Source: Methanolobus sediminis (GTDB lineage: Archaea > Halobacteriota > Methanosarcinia > Methanosarcinales > Methanosarcinaceae). Taken from it: 64,000 nt of DNA. The notes beneath the pieces are model-generated. The model had not been told where the DNA came from and made no database searches. It saw nothing but the letters and a program-made list of their open reading frames with translations. The translations under genes and the position numbers were made by a program. Location: positions 1,054,001 to 1,118,000 of the forward strand of contig NZ_CP133592.1 of assembly GCF_031312595.1 (NCBI RefSeq), given 5' to 3'. This document shows positions 30,858 through 56,328 of this stretch, piece by piece. Numbering within the stretch: the stretch's first letter is position 1; each line of letters starts with the position of its first letter.

Positions 30858-33155
30858 TTAATTTGACCGGGAAAATGCAGGGAATATTACGTGAACCGTA
30901 GTACCTGAGCCTTCAGTACTTTCCACCCACACATTACCATGATGTACCTCAGCTATGGTTTTGCTGACATACAGACCCATTCCGCTTCCACCGTATTTAC
31001 GGGACTTCGAACCATCTATCTGGTAAAAACGCTCAAAAACATTTTCAATTTCATGCTCAGGAATACCAATTCCTGAATCTGTCACCGTCACATGCACATA
31101 TCCTTCATCCTCAAATGCACGTATCAATATCTCGGAGTCGTTTGGACTAAACTTTAAAGCATTATCGATGATGGACCTGAAAAGATAAGGTAAATACTCC
31201 ACATCACCCTTCATCAGTGGCAGATGCTTCTGGAAATCATATGAAAAAATAATGTTCTTTTCCTGGGACTTAAAGGAGAAATATTCCACAACTTTTGTAA
31301 GAGTATCCTCAATTCTAATAGGATCAAGCCTGTATTGAACTTTCCCAGACTTGATAATGCTCATATAGAGAAGGGAATCCATAAGGAAACTTAGATGGTC
31401 ATACTTTTCAAGTACTGTTTTCATGGCTGCTTTTTGCCTGGAATTTAGTGGTCCCATAACTTCATCGTGAACCAGTTCACTATAACCTTTGATGGAGATA
31501 AGAGGTGTTTTCAACTCATGGCTCAGATTGGATATGAACTCATCCTTCATCCGGTCAAGAGATTTTAGTTCTTCATAGACCCTTGCCAATTCCTCAGTAT
31601 ACCGTTTGATCTCTTCCTCAGCTTTCTTACGCTCAGTGATATCACGCGTAACACCAAGGAAAAACTCAAAAGTACCATCCTCAGCAAAAACAGGATTTGC
31701 AACAGCTTCAGTCCATCTTTTAGAACCGTCTTTGTGATATTGTTCAATCTCGAATGTTTCCGAATATTTTACTTCACCGGCCTTGAGATGATCACGAAAA
31801 CGTGCTATTGCATCTAATATAATTTCTATGTGCTCAGGAGGAAATATTTCCTCAAATGATTGCTCTGCAACCTCTTCAGGAGTATATCCCCTTAATTTGA
31901 AAACAGAAGGACTGGTATATGTGAATTTGCCCTCCTTACTCAGAGTCCATATTACATCATTTGCGTTTTCAGCAAGTAGACGGAATTTATGTTCACTTTC
32001 CCTAAGCTCTTTTTCAGCGAGTTTTCTTTCAGTTATGTCCCTTACATTGCTCAGAAGCACCTGTTTACCATCATACTCTATAATCCTCACACCCATCTCA
32101 ACCGGAATACGGGAGCCAGCCTTTGTCATGTAGACCATTTCCAGTCTTAAGGACTGGTGTTCCATGAAATCCTTCATTATTTCACTACACATGCCATCGA
32201 ATTCAGGTGCTACAAGGTCATAACGAGTCATTTTTAAGAGTTCATCTATTGAATAACCAAGCATTTCTAATGCTATTGAATTTGCATCAATTATATTACA
32301 ATCAAAATCAAATATCAATATAGCATCGGCAGCATTTTCAAAAAGTGCCCTGAATTTGGATTCAGATGCCTGGAGTTTTAATGTTGCCAGCCTTTCTTCG
32401 GTAACATCAGAACCTGAACTGAGAATACCAATTATATCACCATCAGAATCCTTAAGATAAGAATTATTCCAGAGTATTATTCTTTTTTCTTTGTTCTTTG
32501 TCAGAACCCCATTCTCATTTACTTTTACAAGCTCCAGGTTGCCATTTGATACATTTTCAAAAACCCAGGATACACGTTCTTTTTCATCATCGGGAACAGC
32601 AATATCCACCCAATTCCTACCGAGAAGTTCCTGCTCGGTATATCCCAATAACTGACAGCATTTTTTGTTTGCAATTTTTACTGTACCGTCTTTATTAAAG
32701 GCAACAATTATGCATCCTGCAATATCAAGATAGGATTGTACCCTGTCTCTTTCAAGTTTTAATTCATCATAGAGATGCTTATTTTTCAGAAGAGTGCGCA
32801 CACGAGTGAGAACTTCCACCCTGTCCACAGGTTTTACGAGGAACTCATCTGCACCTGCTTCTATTCCTTTTATTCTGTCGTCTTTAGAAGAAAGAGCTGT
32901 AACGATAATCACCTGAATGAATTTTGTAGATTCATTGGCCTTTATCCTGCGACATACTTCATACCCATCCATTCCAGGCATCATTATGTCAAGTATTACA
33001 AGGTCAATAGGTTTAGATCCCACTATTTCAAGAGCTTCTTCCCCACTGTATGCAGCGAGAACGGAATAGTGTTTTGAGAGAAATACTTCCAAAAGCCTGA
33101 CGTTTAGCGGGTCGTCATCTACAATCAATACGGTATGTCCGGTTTTTTCATCCAT
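30858..33155 (-). CDS. response-regulator/PAS/PAS/PAS sensor histidine kinase
   Basis: The 765-residue hybrid has an N-terminal receiver domain (LIVDDDPLNVR; phospho-acceptor Asp in LVILDIMMPGMDGYEV), three PAS domains (about 135-510; each ends DITERK-like), a HisKA domain with His in FISNLSHELKTPL, and an HATPase with DSGIGIPEHE and GGSGMGLYVSKTI. No membrane segment is seen, so it is cytoplasmic. I start at ATG 33155, seven bases after AAGG; ATG 33185 lacks a site. The phosphorelay partner is not adjacent. Upstream is divergent from the DedA-like gene. Confidence 0.93.
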   Translation of the reverse strand: MDEKTGHTVLIVDDDPLNVRLLEVFLSKHYSVLAAYSGEEALEIVGSKPIDLVILDIMMPGMDGYEVCRRIKANESTKFIQVIIVTALSSKDDRIKGIEAGADEFLVKPVDRVEVLTRVRTLLKNKHLYDELKLERDRVQSYLDIAGCIIVAFNKDGTVKIANKKCCQLLGYTEQELLGRNWVDIAVPDDEKERVSWVFENVSNGNLELVKVNENGVLTKNKEKRIILWNNSYLKDSDGDIIGILSSGSDVTEERLATLKLQASESKFRALFENAADAILIFDFDCNIIDANSIALEMLGYSIDELLKMTRYDLVAPEFDGMCSEIMKDFMEHQSLRLEMVYMTKAGSRIPVEMGVRIIEYDGKQVLLSNVRDITERKLAEKELRESEHKFRLLAENANDVIWTLSKEGKFTYTSPSVFKLRGYTPEEVAEQSFEEIFPPEHIEIILDAIARFRDHLKAGEVKYSETFEIEQYHKDGSKRWTEAVANPVFAEDGTFEFFLGVTRDITERKKAEEEIKRYTEELARVYEELKSLDRMKDEFISNLSHELKTPLISIKGYSELVHDEVMGPLNSRQKAAMKTVLEKYDHLSFLMDSLLYMSIIKSGKVQYRLDPIRIEDTLTKVVEYFSFKSQEKNIIFSYDFQKHLPLMKGDVEYLPYLFRSIIDNALKFSPNDSEILIRAFEDEGYVHVTVTDSGIGIPEHEIENVFERFYQIDGSKSRKYGGSGMGLYVSKTIAEVHHGNVWVESTEGSGTTVHVIFPAFSRSN

Positions 33156-33340
33156 TTTTAAACCTTGGAAATCAAAATTTTGCATATATTTGGCCTAGTG
33201 ACTATTCTGTGAAATGCGGTTATGATTATATGTGATGATTTTCACACTAGTGAGCAAATGTTACATTGCAGTAGATAGTGCTATTAATATATAAACATCA
33301 TTAACACGTTTTATCAAATGGAACGAAGAAAAATTAAGAC

Positions 33341-35033: not shown

Positions 35034-36680
35034 CTAACACACTTTTACCGGATCTGCACGGACCGGTATCGAGAAACTGAACTTACTTCCTTCACCAAAC
35101 CTACTCTCAACCCATACCCTGCCCTCATGCAGTTCTACGAACTTCCTGACAAGAGCAAGACCAAGCCCTGTTCCTTTTTGATCTCTGGCCAGATAGGAAT
35201 TCAACTGAGTGAACGGGTGGAAGAGCTTGTCAATATCCTCTTCCGAAATACCGATGCCACTGTCCTCCACACTGATAACAATAACACTGCCCATAAGTTT
35301 TCCAGATATATCAACAGAACTCCTCTCCGGAGCGAACTTAATTGCATTGCTTCCCAGATTATACAGGATCTGCTTGAACTTGGTCCTGTCAGCATTGATA
35401 ATATTCACCTCCGGTTCAATATCGACTTCCATCTTGATATGTTTCTTCTTTGCAAGAGGTGATAGTAACACCTGAACTTCATCTATTGCAACAGGAACAG
35501 AGAACTCTTCTACTAAGAGCTCCATTTTACCTGCTTCGACCTTAGAGATATCGAGTACATCGTTTATTAACTTTAACAGATGCTTTCCTGCATCTGATAT
35601 ATGACGTACATATCTGGTCTGCTTCTCATCCAGGTCACCGAATGTACGGTCCAGAAGTACATCAGAGAAACCGATAACAGAGGTCAGCGGAGTGCGTAAT
35701 TCATGGCTCATGGTTGCCAGGAACTCATCCTTACTGCGATTTGCAGCCTCTGCAACGATCTTTGCATGAAGAAGTGCGTCTTCTGTTTTTTTACGTTCTG
35801 TAACATCCTGGATTGTACCTATAACAATATTTTTCTCTGCATCATACTCAGCAACTGAATGAATATCCCTAATAGCACCATCGTTTCGCCGGGCGATCCT
35901 GTACTGTACATCATAAGGAGAAAAGTGCTCAATCAATTCCCTCATAGCCTCATCCATCATTGGACGATATTCTGGCAAAACTACTGACTGCACCTCTTTA
36001 AGAGGTAAAATTTCATTATCTGTATCGTATCCATATATCCTTTTAGCCTCATCCGAAGAATCCATCATACCAGAATTAAGATTTAACTCCCAGCTCCCTA
36101 TATGCCCTATTTTTTGAGCAGTTCTTAGTTGCATATTTCGTTTATGGAGTTCAACTTCGGCCTTTTTGCGCTCAGTTATGTCATGAACAATTGAGTAAAG
36201 GAGCTGCTGTGAATTCACAATAACAGGACTGCTGTAAACTTCAACATCACGAATCTGGCCATTTGCAAGTTTGTGCCTGAAAAGAAAATAGTTCCTTTTT
36301 TCAGCAACTGCATTCTGCATCTCTTCCAGTACTTTATCAGGAGGCAGAATATTGAGATCATGTATCTTCATGTGTGTGATTACTTCAAGTGGCCAACCAT
36401 AGTAATCACATGCAGCATTATTGGCATCAATGATTTCAAAGTTCTCAGGGTTTATGAGTAAAGTAACTGCTTTGTTATACTTAAAAAGTGAGTGATATAC
36501 GTCACCTTTCTCCATGAAGAATCGATCAGCACTTAGATATTCATTCACACAAGCAACATCGCTTGATTCTATATTTGCACCTGAATCACTTGATTGAATA
36601 GTGTCAAGTGTCTGGGATGAATCATAAGAGGTGTCTAATTCAGCTTTTGAACGAACACCATCAAACCCTGCACCTTCCAT
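35034..36680 (-). CDS. PAS/PAS sensor histidine kinase
   Basis: The 548-residue cytoplasmic kinase has a low-complexity N-terminus (about 1-65), two PAS domains (about 70-180 and 185-305, each ending HDITERKK or QDVTERKK), HisKA with His in FLATMSHELRTPL and an HATPase (DSGIGISEEDI, GTGLGLALVRKFV). No receiver domain or transmembrane helix is present. The partner regulator is not next to it. ATG 36680 is preceded by GAGTGTGG. It ends convergent on the CPBP remnant. Confidence 0.93.
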   Translation of the reverse strand: MEGAGFDGVRSKAELDTSYDSSQTLDTIQSSDSGANIESSDVACVNEYLSADRFFMEKGDVYHSLFKYNKAVTLLINPENFEIIDANNAACDYYGWPLEVITHMKIHDLNILPPDKVLEEMQNAVAEKRNYFLFRHKLANGQIRDVEVYSSPVIVNSQQLLYSIVHDITERKKAEVELHKRNMQLRTAQKIGHIGSWELNLNSGMMDSSDEAKRIYGYDTDNEILPLKEVQSVVLPEYRPMMDEAMRELIEHFSPYDVQYRIARRNDGAIRDIHSVAEYDAEKNIVIGTIQDVTERKKTEDALLHAKIVAEAANRSKDEFLATMSHELRTPLTSVIGFSDVLLDRTFGDLDEKQTRYVRHISDAGKHLLKLINDVLDISKVEAGKMELLVEEFSVPVAIDEVQVLLSPLAKKKHIKMEVDIEPEVNIINADRTKFKQILYNLGSNAIKFAPERSSVDISGKLMGSVIVISVEDSGIGISEEDIDKLFHPFTQLNSYLARDQKGTGLGLALVRKFVELHEGRVWVESRFGEGSKFSFSIPVRADPVKVC

Positions 36681-52732: not shown

Positions 52733-53749
52733 TTAATCTGTGTGCACCTTGTTGAGACGCACCCAGAATGTGCTGCCATCTTCAGGATAATTACTATCCA
52801 CACCAACCTCACCATTATGGAGAGTTACGATCTTATGAACGATTGCAAGACCTAATCCTGTTCCCTTTATACACCCTTTTTTAACCTTATCCAGTCTTGA
52901 AAAACGAGTGAAAATCAGTTCTCTGTCTTCTTCAGGGATACCGGACCCATGATCTATTATATTAACCTGCCACTGTTCACCGATATCTGATATAGTTACC
53001 TCTACATGGCTGCCTTTTGGACTGTATTTAATAGCATTTGAAATCAGGTTGATAAAGACCTGATCAATAACGGAATTCACCATTGAAGGATAAAAGCTAT
53101 TGATCTGAACATCCACCGTCATTTCATTCTCTTCAAATCTGGGCCTGAAATTATCAACTATGTTCTCCAGGGTTGAACCAAGATCATGAATCGAAAAATC
53201 AATTTCTTCCACAGAGTCAAGTTTGGCAAATTCTGCTGCTTTTTCTATGATAGAGATAAGGTTCCTGTTACTTTTATCAATATTTGATAGCAGTGACTTT
53301 TTCTTATCGTCAGCCTCCCATTCAAGAAGGACAGCAACAAAGCCGTTTATCAAAGATGCCGGATTCAAAAGATCATGCCGCATTATATCAGCAAAAAGTT
53401 CTTTCAGCTCATTGGAATGTTGCAATTCCTGTGCATAAACCTCAAGTTCCTTCTTGTTTTTTTCCAGATCCTCTATCCATTGTCTGAATGCAAGACCATA
53501 AGCCATCATTAATTCTACAAGAGGAGTTGAAAGGAAACCGACTGATTCCATCACACTTTTAGCAGGCAAGTCTGCTGCCAGCTTCTTTACCGCTAGCTCA
53601 TGCATTTCAATAATATCTTCGGGAGGCACATTTAATCTGACCAATTCATACCCAAGGTCCTCTGACCTCATTAGATATTTTTCTTCACGAGTGGAGACAT
53701 ACCCCTTCAAGATATCGTAATATCTGTCGTTAATTTCATCGTTATTCAT
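52733..53749 (-). CDS. histidine kinase with RsbU-type N-terminal (RsbT-binding) domain
   Basis: The 338-residue protein has an N-terminal helical domain (RYYDILKGYVSTREEKYLMR, LVRLNVPPEDIIEMHELAVK, LMMAYGLAFRQW) that closely follows the N-terminus of Bacillus RsbU, the RsbT docking domain. A coiled linker leads to HisKA (LFADIMRHDLLNPASLINGF, His before Asp) and an HATPase (DHGSGIPEEDRE, GTGLGLAIVHKIV). No PP2C domain is present. I start at ATG 53749; a GTG at 53758 overlaps the preceding stop. It is the last gene of the six-gene stressosome operon and the likely output kinase (inference). Confidence 0.88.
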   Translation of the reverse strand: MNNDEINDRYYDILKGYVSTREEKYLMRSEDLGYELVRLNVPPEDIIEMHELAVKKLAADLPAKSVMESVGFLSTPLVELMMAYGLAFRQWIEDLEKNKKELEVYAQELQHSNELKELFADIMRHDLLNPASLINGFVAVLLEWEADDKKKSLLSNIDKSNRNLISIIEKAAEFAKLDSVEEIDFSIHDLGSTLENIVDNFRPRFEENEMTVDVQINSFYPSMVNSVIDQVFINLISNAIKYSPKGSHVEVTISDIGEQWQVNIIDHGSGIPEEDRELIFTRFSRLDKVKKGCIKGTGLGLAIVHKIVTLHNGEVGVDSNYPEDGSTFWVRLNKVHTD

Positions 53750-53754
53750 ATTGA

Positions 53755-54327
53755 TCACTTCATTGTACAGACCAATATGGTTGCATCGTCAGTCATACGT
53801 CCATAATCCCCAAGTATTGCCTTTGCCAGTTGTTGTTCATCCTGCAGCAGATACATACCATACGATGATAGCTTAATATGTTCAGGTATGCCATCTGTCC
53901 ACATGACCAGGAGCCCATAAGAAGAGATATCCACTTTCTCCACATACAGGTGCCTGTATCCACCACCTACGATACCCCAGCTGGATGTAAGATGAGAGGA
54001 CTTTTCACCATACAACATTGTACGGGTATTTCCAATACCGCCATATTCGAGAGTGACATCATCCTGATAGATGCGTGCAATACTCATTGCCACACCCCTG
54101 GTATGCTTGATAGCTTTGTCACAACCTGAAAACAATTTATCAAGCGACTCATCCAGATGGAGAGATACATAATCAAGAGCTTCTTTTGCCGCTTCTTCAG
54201 CGTGCTTCCCATGTCCCAGACCATCGATCATGCACATTGTCAATGTGCCATCTTCAAGCCACCAGTCGCACTGGTCACCGCAATGTACATCGTTATTAAA
54301 TGAACGGGATTCCGTTGCTATTCGCAT
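53755..54327 (-). CDS. rsbX: RsbX-like PP2C/SpoIIE-family phosphatase
   Basis: The 190-residue single-domain phosphatase resembles RsbX: CGDQCDWW near the N-terminus, the metal site MIDGLGHGKHAEEAAKEAL, GVAMSIARIY, YGGIGNTRTML, MWTDGIPEHI and the final Asp in MTDDATILV. RsbX dephosphorylates RsbS/RsbR and resets the stressosome. ATG 54327 lies inside the upstream ATPase gene's end (10-base overlap). Its lack of an N-terminal sensory or RsbU domain distinguishes it from RsbU/RsbP. Confidence 0.87.
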   Translation of the reverse strand: MRIATESRSFNNDVHCGDQCDWWLEDGTLTMCMIDGLGHGKHAEEAAKEALDYVSLHLDESLDKLFSGCDKAIKHTRGVAMSIARIYQDDVTLEYGGIGNTRTMLYGEKSSHLTSSWGIVGGGYRHLYVEKVDISSYGLLVMWTDGIPEHIKLSSYGMYLLQDEQQLAKAILGDYGRMTDDATILVCTMK

Positions 54328-54761
54328 GAATACCACAACCGTGTTATAATACAGGTATTTGTATCATCTGTCACTGAGATTTCAAGTTCGTCCATCATCC
54401 TTTTTACCGCAGATAAACCTGAACCAAGACCTGGACCTGTCGAATAACCATCCACTAAAACCCGTTCAGCATCCTTTATTCCTGGGCCAGAGTCGTTAGA
54501 AATAAGTTCAATTCCTACGTAGCCTTTTTTTCTTAACTCACAAATCGTGATAGTGCCACCACTAAGAGTATGGTAAACCAGATTCGAAGCAAGCTCTGAA
54601 GCAGATGTGGCTACTTTATGAGCATCTATATCCGAAAAGCAGAGTTTTCTTGCGAAGGATAAGGCTTTTGTCTGGACGTTCGCAACATGTACCAGGTTAG
54701 TTACCTCTATTGTTGCTTCCAGATATTTCTCAGTAAATGCATTATCTCCAGTTTCAGACAT
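54318..54761 (-). CDS. second RsbT/RsbW-like GHKL ATPase
   Basis: The 147-residue HATPase_c_2 protein has N-box ATSASELASNLVYHTLSGG, G1 ELISNDSGPGIKDAE and G2 YSTGPGLGSGLSAVKRMMD. It is a diverged paralogue of the adjacent RsbT and might be a second switch kinase or an RsbW-like anti-factor. There is no sigma factor or anti-sigma antagonist next to it. ATG overlaps the RsbT stop by eight bases. Confidence 0.85.
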   Translation of the reverse strand: MSETGDNAFTEKYLEATIEVTNLVHVANVQTKALSFARKLCFSDIDAHKVATSASELASNLVYHTLSGGTITICELRKKGYVGIELISNDSGPGIKDAERVLVDGYSTGPGLGSGLSAVKRMMDELEISVTDDTNTCIITRLWYSCE

Positions 54762-55164
54762 TCGGACGACTCATTTCTAAATTAATTTTGGTATAACCCG
54801 GACTGGATTCTATGGAAAAATCATTAACGAGCCTTTTTGCACCCGGAAGACCTGCTCCCAGACCTCCGCCTGTTGTGTAGCCATCTTCCATAGCCTTATC
54901 AATGTCTTCGATACCTGGCCCATAGTCCTCAATCTCTACCTTGATCCTGATCTCTTCAGATGAGGATTCGGTAACTATATGGCATACACCATGACCTGCA
55001 TATTTTATTACGTTCCTTGTCAGTTCAGAGATGGCTGTAGCCATACGGGTCTGGTCGGCCGAGCCAAATCCAATGTCTGCCATTTCCTGCCTAGCAATCT
55101 TCCTGGCTATGAGAATATCATCCTCGATCTTGAGTTCAATACACTTATCAGTGATGTTAATCAA
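54754..55164 (-). CDS. rsbT: RsbT-like serine/threonine protein kinase
   Basis: The 136-residue GHKL kinase matches RsbT along its whole length: MADIGFGSADQTRMATAISE, NVIKYAGHG, EDYGPGIEDIDKAMEDGY and TTGGGLGAGLPGAKRLVND. RsbT phosphorylates RsbS and RsbR in the stressosome and, once released, activates an RsbU-type partner. The start is TTG 55164 overlapping the rsbS end by eight bases; the GAGGGAG lies immediately before it, so the precise start is uncertain. Confidence 0.92.
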   Translation of the reverse strand: MINITDKCIELKIEDDILIARKIARQEMADIGFGSADQTRMATAISELTRNVIKYAGHGVCHIVTESSSEEIRIKVEIEDYGPGIEDIDKAMEDGYTTGGGLGAGLPGAKRLVNDFSIESSPGYTKINLEMSRPNV

Positions 55165-55540
55165 CTCCCTCTGATATCATTTCCAGAAGCTTATCAAAGC
55201 CTTTATCGAGATTCAGAGCAGTATCTACGCCGATAAGTTCACGTCCCATTTCCACCAGTGTAAGCGCAACCATTGGCTGCATTCCACATAGAACGACCTT
55301 AGCACCCATTAGACGTGCCATTCTTGCAGTCTCGTTTATCACACGGGCCATGAAGGAATCAACAATATCCATTGCAGTGATATCTATGATAAAGCCCTTT
55401 GCATCACTCTTTTCGAGGAAAGAAACAACATCCGCCTGATACCTCAAGGCATCATCATCGGTCATGTCACTCTGTATTGATGTAAGGAGAATATTCTTTA
55501 GTTTAAGTATTGGTATTTGCACGGAAACACCCCTTATCAT
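55157..55540 (-). CDS. rsbS: RsbS-like STAS-domain stressosome protein
   Basis: This is a 127-residue single STAS domain. The phosphorylatable serine is Ser62 in DITAMDIVDSFMARVINETA, matching the RsbS Ser59 context. It begins VQIPILKLKNILLTSIQ and ends GVDTALNLDKGFDKLLEM. With RsbR it forms the stressosome core that holds RsbT. The ATG overlaps the rsbR stop (ATGA). Confidence 0.93.
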   Translation of the reverse strand: MIRGVSVQIPILKLKNILLTSIQSDMTDDDALRYQADVVSFLEKSDAKGFIIDITAMDIVDSFMARVINETARMARLMGAKVVLCGMQPMVALTLVEMGRELIGVDTALNLDKGFDKLLEMISEGVD

Positions 55541-56328
55541 ACCAGTTTCTTGCCTATTATGCCGAATGCTTTTGAGACACCGTCACGCAATGAACCACTG
55601 GTAGTGATATCACCGAGGTTAACTCCAAGTGTCACAAGTGTCTGTGCGACATTTGGACTGAATCCTGTAATGATGACTTCAGCACCGAGCATTTTTCCGG
55701 CACTTACGGTTTTAAGTATATGCTGGGCAACACTTGTATCGATCATAGGAACACCGGTTACATCCAGAATTGCTACTGCTGCTTCATTCTCTACTATGGA
55801 AGCTAGCAGGTTCTCTATTATCTGCTGGGCACGCATTGTGTCAATTACACCTACAAGCGGAAGAATAACAATGCCTTCCCACAGTTTGATGACAGGTGTT
55901 GAGAGTTCCATAATAGTACGACTATGGGCACGGACTTCTTCCTCTATCTTTACCCTTTCACTTATATCGACGACATACTCCAGTCCACCCACTATGTTAC
56001 CCTCTTTGTCCTTCAAAGGGGCAGCAGTATATTCAATGGGAAATGTTTTTCCAGCAGCTGTCATCTTATTTCTCCATACATATATGCGATCACTTTCCAT
56101 TGCCTGCTTTACACGGCAGTTGTCTGTACGACAATGAGGAGATTGCACTATATCATAGCATTTCTTACCTTCAAGATTCTCCACCTCAAGCCATTTACAT
56201 CCAACTGCATTAAGAGAAAGAATATTAAAATCCCGATCAATTGCCATGACCATGCATGGCAGCTGGTCAAGAACATCCTTTGTAATATCGAAATTCTCAA
56301 TTTTAGCAGATATATCATTTGTTATCAT
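55537..56328 (-). CDS. rsbR: RsbR-like stressosome sensor (PAS + STAS)
   Basis: This 263-residue protein has an N-terminal PAS domain (LPCMVMAIDRDFNILSLN, a CYDIVQSPHCRTDNC segment with three cysteines, ending GLEYVVDISER) and a C-terminal RsbR-type STAS (LDVTGVPMIDTSVAQHI, ITGFSPNVAQTLVTLG). Both threonines equivalent to Bacillus Thr171 (DTS) and Thr205 (AQT) are present. The cysteine-rich PAS could sense redox or metal in place of the globin domain of Bacillus RsbR (inference). ATG 56328 follows GGAGG; the frame's further 34 upstream residues are unsupported. It heads the operon. Confidence 0.93.
   Translation of the reverse strand: MITNDISAKIENFDITKDVLDQLPCMVMAIDRDFNILSLNAVGCKWLEVENLEGKKCYDIVQSPHCRTDNCRVKQAMESDRIYVWRNKMTAAGKTFPIEYTAAPLKDKEGNIVGGLEYVVDISERVKIEEEVRAHSRTIMELSTPVIKLWEGIVILPLVGVIDTMRAQQIIENLLASIVENEAAVAILDVTGVPMIDTSVAQHILKTVSAGKMLGAEVIITGFSPNVAQTLVTLGVNLGDITTSGSLRDGVSKAFGIIGKKLV

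Follow-up and report, generated by a model that had tools for sequence, protein, structure and literature searches.

A stressosome operon of Methanolobus sediminis in which a histidine kinase with an RsbU_N domain and a methanogen-type core is the predicted target of RsbT

A 64,000-nucleotide stretch of the Methanolobus sediminis genome (contig NZ_CP133592.1 of assembly GCF_031312595.1, positions 1,054,001 to 1,118,000; hereafter the window, whose numbering is used below) contains a stressosome operon of six minus-strand genes with intact frames, running from 56328 to 52733 and adjoining mtd. In the order of transcription, the genes encode RsbR (55537..56328, 263 amino acids), with a PAS_4 sensor and a STAS domain; RsbS (55157..55540, 127 amino acids), a single STAS domain; RsbT (54754..55164, 136 amino acids, TTG start), a GHKL switch kinase; a second GHKL ATPase (54318..54761, 147 amino acids), termed GHKL2; an RsbX-like, SpoIIE-like stand-alone PP2C protein (53755..54327, 190 amino acids); and a histidine kinase of RsbU_N-HisKA-HATPase_c layout (52733..53749, 338 amino acids). 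The intergenic gaps from rsbR to the kinase gene are -4, -8, -8, -10, and +5 nucleotides. An earlier note on this DNA, made from its letters alone, had described these six genes as a stressosome operon, and the coordinates, the frames, and the Pfam and Protein Data Bank (PDB) comparisons agree with that description. The same gene set is conserved in 7 Methanolobus genomes, which argues against a chance assembly. A scan for bacterial promoters was uninformative, the host being an archaeon.

The proteins of the presumed stressosome core retain the residues expected of them. RsbR matches the Pfam STAS (E 4.8e-14) and PAS (E 1.4e-12) families, and its closest solved relative in a PDB sequence search is the stressosome RsbR STAS domain 7o0i (E 2.8e-34). 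Its residues T164 and T198, which are 34 apart, fall on the conserved IDT and VVDT positions, those of T171 and T205 in Bacillus subtilis RsbR, with the same spacing. RsbS matches STAS (E 6.4e-10) and has RsbS chains as its nearest solved relatives (6jhk, E 4.3e-30); its S62 aligns with the DSF motif of RsbS, where it corresponds to S59, and in the alignment to 9o4r, an S-to-A chain, the substitution falls on this residue. RsbT and GHKL2 both match HATPase_c/HATPase_c_2, and RsbT falls in a clade (100/99) apart from GHKL2 and has intact N, G1, and G2 boxes. R21 and R25 of RsbT correspond to R19 and R23 of B. subtilis RsbT, the RsbU contacts; the R19 equivalent is kept in 25/25 RsbT sequences versus 3/20 GHKL2 sequences, and the R23 position holds R or K in RsbT. 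No close structure for RsbT came out of the PDB sequence search. The RsbX-like protein scores 24.4 bits against SpoIIE, just under the Pfam cut-off of 25, and is predicted from its sequence to be a phosphatase: the metal motifs DGLGHG, TDG, and DDAT are present with the PP2C aspartates intact, and bacterial RsbX proteins at the equivalent gene position match it at 1e-23 to 2e-50. The PAS domain of RsbR also carries three cysteines (C57, C66, and C71; C-x8-C-x4-C) that are kept in Methanolobus, in the sister genus, and in the bacterial loci L035 and L048; the domain may sense redox state or a metal.

The sixth gene encodes a kinase whose N-terminus matches RsbU_N at 51.5 bits (E 1.2e-13; Pfam cut-off 25.5), followed by HisKA and HATPase_c matches. 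RsbU_N covers residues 9-87, the linker runs from about 91 to 114, and the catalytic landmarks are H125, the N-box from 234, G1 at 266, F at 280, and G2 at 296; there is no receiver domain. A genome-wide search with PF08673 returned RsbU_N once, at 53489..53725 (E 3.5e-14). The earlier note had compared the first 85 or so residues with the N-terminal domain of RsbU and had named in advance a lack of profile similarity as grounds for refutation; the match lies above the cut-off and the assignment stands. The best PDB relative of this region is likewise the RsbU N-domain (E 9e-10, sequence search). Among the RsbT-binding residues of RsbU listed in PMC12143880, E24 corresponds to E23 of the kinase, which is invariant, and I74/I78 to the hydrophobic V78/M82.

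AlphaFold2 places helices at residues 3-20, 23-38, 43-60, and 63-72 of the kinase, then a single continuous helix at 74-144 that spans the end of RsbU_N, the linker, and the region past H125 (predicted local distance difference test (pLDDT) 83.6, predicted template modeling score 0.58). Residues 1-112 modeled alone are helical (pLDDT 94.6), and in Foldseek RsbU chains take ranks 1-7 for this segment with probabilities of 0.96-0.99. Because the E values are 0.14-0.27 and the root-mean-square deviation is about 6 Å, the fold gives weak support, and it is the sequence match that carries the homology claim for RsbU_N. For the full-length model, all the matches listed are histidine kinases.

We compared the locus across 27 Methanolobus genomes. 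Of these, 7 encode RsbT as well as the RsbU_N kinase, 2 (G125 and G308) encode the kinase alone, none encodes RsbT alone, and 18 encode neither (Fisher p 4e-5, a value that ignores shared ancestry). The locus adjoins mtd and/or serB in 9/9 kinase-bearing genomes, and serB and mtd lie close together in 10/10 kinase-less genomes examined. One of these ten (G302, locus L127) retains a remnant of about 25 codons of the rsbR start between serB and mtd, so loss of the operon has occurred. In G125 and G308, the genes from rsbR to rsbX are lost and an intact kinase is kept at the same site.

These two RsbT-less genomes allow the constraint on RsbU_N to be compared with that on the kinase core. In genomes with RsbT, RsbU_N is conserved about as well as the core or better. 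On the stem leading to the RsbT-less pair, its branch length is 0.469 and that of the core is 0.152. The ratio on this stem, 3.1, compares with 0.62 over the rest of the tree, so that relative to the core the evolution of RsbU_N was accelerated about 5-fold. Columns that are invariant in RsbT-bearing species and changed on this stem amount to 18/55 in RsbU_N versus 21/130 in the core (Fisher p 0.017). The linker of the RsbT-less genomes is shorter by seven residues, which would be one heptad if the linker is a coiled coil.

The phylogenies indicate where the parts came from. In the RsbT tree, six Methanosarcinaceae sequences form one clade (97/95) within a Gram-negative set (100/99), and the four RsbT sequences from L017-L020, which belong to other archaeal families, are placed on the Bacillota side. 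The RsbU_N tree has the same split; RsbT and RsbU_N are co-inherited, and the matching splits suggest that stressosomes with RsbU_N kinases probably entered archaea at least twice. The kinase core of the Methanolobus operon groups with resident Methanolobus PAS kinases (100/99, 45-51% identity), whereas that of the operon kinase in the sister genus is of SHELRTP type and groups with the resident-type kinase at 35034-36680 of the window (99/99), a PAS kinase with the SHELRTP motif encoded by a separate gene. Forcing the cores of the two genera into one clade is rejected (approximately unbiased test, p 1e-57). We dropped the idea of a bacterial-like core in the sister genus in view of that 99/99 grouping. 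By these trees, RsbU_N is inherited with RsbT while the kinase core behind it has been swapped, and the core is a native methanogen kinase. It is likely that the operon is of Gram-negative type, was acquired by an ancestor within the Methanosarcinaceae, and was kept in some Methanolobus. We also lean, with less assurance, toward RsbU_N in this family serving as an exchangeable socket for RsbT on differing resident kinase cores in sister genera; a bacterial partner-switching hub would thereby feed archaeal two-component signaling, and after the loss of RsbT the socket would have been remodeled while the kinase stayed.

The basic idea of archaeal rsbRSTX modules, and of RsbU_N kinases in stressosome operons, is already known. 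Passages of Heinz et al. 2022 (PMC9237108) describe rsbRSTX modules in some archaea and RsbU_N on effectors downstream of rsbX in Proteobacteria; parts of the same paper and of PMC12143880 report RsbU_N histidine kinases in proteobacterial stressosome operons and mention archaeal modules; and the pertinent sections of Baral et al. 2025 (PMC12143880) attribute the control of RsbU by RsbT to linker ordering and propose its extension to histidine kinases. The Methanolobus case is not named in the relevant passages of PMC9237108 and PMC12143880, and the corresponding part of a 2018 census of archaeal two-component systems (PMC5847659) gives RsbU only in a receiver-PP2C context. The reading in the earlier note survives in part: the anatomy and the route from RsbT through RsbU_N to the kinase fit all the sequence evidence, the genome comparisons add support for the link, the wiring is still one that we infer, and the arrangement had already been published. 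Three things are new here: a kinase core native to methanogens, the swapping of cores between the two genera, and an apparent evolutionary link of RsbU_N with RsbT.

Comparison loci from Gram-negative bacteria and Bacillus (L034-L059) were retrieved by means of RsbT. The order R-S-T-GHKL2-X-RsbU_N effector is common among the Gram-negative loci, with plain HisKA effectors in L037, L039, L048, and L057. The operon thus shares with Gram-negative rsbRSTX modules, as described in parts of PMC9237108 and PMC12143880, the gene set and order, GHKL2, a kinase after rsbX, and the RsbT and RsbU_N clades; it differs in its archaeal host, its resident methanogen core, and an RsbR sensor that is PAS rather than globin. 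Its kinase also lacks the receiver or phosphotransfer domains carried by the effectors of L035, L036, and L041. With the B. subtilis RsbRST-RsbU-RsbV-RsbW-SigB pathway it has in common homologues of RsbR, RsbS, and RsbT, a putative RsbX homologue, the phospho-acceptors, and RsbU_N as the predicted docking domain, but there is no PP2C output and no RsbV-like stand-alone STAS protein, RsbT belongs to the Gram-negative clade, and Y28 is not conserved. The Moorella thermoacetica stressosome, cited in the relevant passages of PMC12143880 and PMC4976288, likewise has RsbU_N on a different enzyme under an RsbT homologue; there the output is an RsbU_N-GAF-GGDEF diguanylate cyclase instead of a histidine kinase. 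Among archaea, the operons L017-L020 also combine RsbR, RsbS, and RsbT with an RsbU_N kinase, rsbT being directly followed by the kinase gene, and differ in their Bacillota-side RsbT and separate acquisition. The sister-genus operon (L021, L138, and L139) has RsbR, RsbS, and RsbT near an RsbU_N kinase and differs by its SHELRTP core and the lack of GHKL2. Other archaeal fusions join RsbU_N to HisKA_2 (L028:7484-8083, a short frame), to GAF (L022:7472-8269), or to a likely PAS region (L029-L031); no RsbR, RsbS, or RsbT was found near these.

GHKL2, whose presence the earlier note had recorded and left unexplained, is borne out by Pfam and by the tree. It forms a separate clade (100/99), keeps the ATP-binding N-box and G1 residues, and lies between rsbT and rsbX in Gram-negative operons, at the equivalent position in L035-L037, L039-L049, and L057. 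It is, by position and phylogeny, an ordinary component of the Gram-negative layout. That it is a second RsbT is ruled out by the tree and the contact residues.

Archaea are not known to have sigma factors, and the rest of the genome offers RsbT no other target of the kind searched for. Elsewhere in the genome, we found no SpoIIE-family protein over the cut-off that could be an RsbU-type phosphatase and no stand-alone STAS protein beyond RsbR and RsbS, the other three STAS matches sitting in frames of 560-572 amino acids. The genome thus has no RsbU/RsbV cascade, and the operon's kinase is the sole protein with RsbU_N on which RsbT could act. This and the HisKA and HATPase_c domains after RsbU_N are in line with the replacement of the PP2C output by a kinase that had been proposed from the letters alone. 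With the patterns used, viral contigs contained no relative of the kinase.

We consider that a stressosome releasing RsbT onto a cytoplasmic RsbU_N kinase is the best explanation of these data, and a likely one. RsbR, through its PAS domain, and RsbS would form a STAS core that sequesters RsbT. Upon a PAS signal, RsbT would phosphorylate T164/T198 of RsbR and S62 of RsbS and depart from the core, and free RsbT would dock onto the RsbU_N dimer together with the helix behind it. Docking may stiffen or re-register this helix, which is continuous with the histidine-bearing helix of the dimerization and histidine phosphotransfer (DHp) domain, such that the kinase/phosphatase balance at H125 shifts and phosphorylation of an unlinked response regulator is altered. 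RsbX would reset the core, and GHKL2 probably acts as a modulator of one of the STAS proteins. The binding of RsbT and its direction of action, the signal, the response regulator, and what GHKL2 does are points that we infer. Since most archaeal receivers lack DNA-binding domains, according to the part of PMC5847659 that deals with them, output by protein contact would be as likely as control of transcription.

Several observations weigh against this explanation. The kinase has M27 in place of RsbU Y28, a residue that RsbT binding requires in B. subtilis, which speaks against a plain copy of the Bacillus interface; Gram-negative RsbU_N domains also lack an equivalent of Y28. The operon includes no response regulator, and the genome has 22 receiver matches that exceed the cut-off, none of them adjacent. 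The rate test draws on a single loss of RsbT. G125 and G308 keep their kinase in the absence of RsbT, with RsbU_N once more conserved from one to the other (81% versus 77% for the core), so the domain has some use that does not need RsbT. Given the single event and the later conservation, the data suggest that RsbT constrains RsbU_N, but not that its docking is the domain's only possible use. These two genomes, with an intact kinase at the same site, no RsbT, and a conserved RsbU_N, also favor a view in which RsbU_N merely dimerizes a kinase that is independent of RsbT, the operon being a relic of co-transfer. We regard this as unlikely: RsbT is never found without the kinase in the genus, RsbU_N is unusually fast exactly on the RsbT-less stem and follows RsbT rather than the kinase core, and in L017-L020 an RsbT of the Bacillota side again directly precedes an RsbU_N kinase gene.

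The remaining alternatives concern how, or through which ATPase, the kinase is reached. RsbT has all its kinase boxes and might act by phosphorylating the kinase, a route suggested for the Vibrio vulnificus effector D1, which lacks RsbU_N, instead of by docking and an ordering of the linker. This is quite improbable, as that proposal was made for effectors lacking RsbU_N, whereas here RsbU_N is joined to DHp by one helix in the AlphaFold2 model, and docking on RsbU_N is established in B. subtilis by the relevant passages of PMC12143880. Most improbable is that the RsbU_N kinase, or a second switch, is partnered by GHKL2 rather than by RsbT; its constant place in Gram-negative operons and its retained N-box and G1 would fit such a role, but the RsbU-contacting arginine (R19) is missing in 17/20 GHKL2 sequences, and the operons of the sister genus and of other archaea have RsbT and an RsbU_N kinase without GHKL2.

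Direct switching of a histidine kinase by RsbT is an open proposal in the pertinent part of PMC12143880. The locus offers compact soluble proteins for its test, and relatives with and without RsbT provide a natural experiment. It also suggests how a hub of sigma-factor signaling can serve a sigma-less host by a change of effector alone, and would extend archaeal two-component systems, of whose inputs and outputs little is known, by an input through protein-protein contact. The sole receiver match in the window is a receiver-PAS kinase fusion at 30858-33185, 20 kb from the operon.

The apparent start of the kinase gene varies within the genus. In the window, the candidates are ATG at 53749 or possibly GTG at 53758. 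In five Methanolobus relatives, no ATG, GTG, or TTG codon occurs in the kinase frame from an in-frame TGA up to RsbU_N; the first ATG is codon 28 or 50, within that domain. Read-through or a frameshift fusion of rsbX with the kinase gene was ruled out for these relatives, since the relative frames vary between species (junctions at 53749-53760 in the window, L024:8170-8190, L025:7850-7870, L026:8420-8435, L027:8435-8455, and L112:8290-8320). At the position of the window's ATG, the five have ATT after a Shine-Dalgarno-like GGTGAT run. Purifying selection acts on the 18 codons starting at RYY (e.g. synonymous 8/11.8, nonsynonymous 1/42.2), and these features together point to an apparent AUU start of the kinase.

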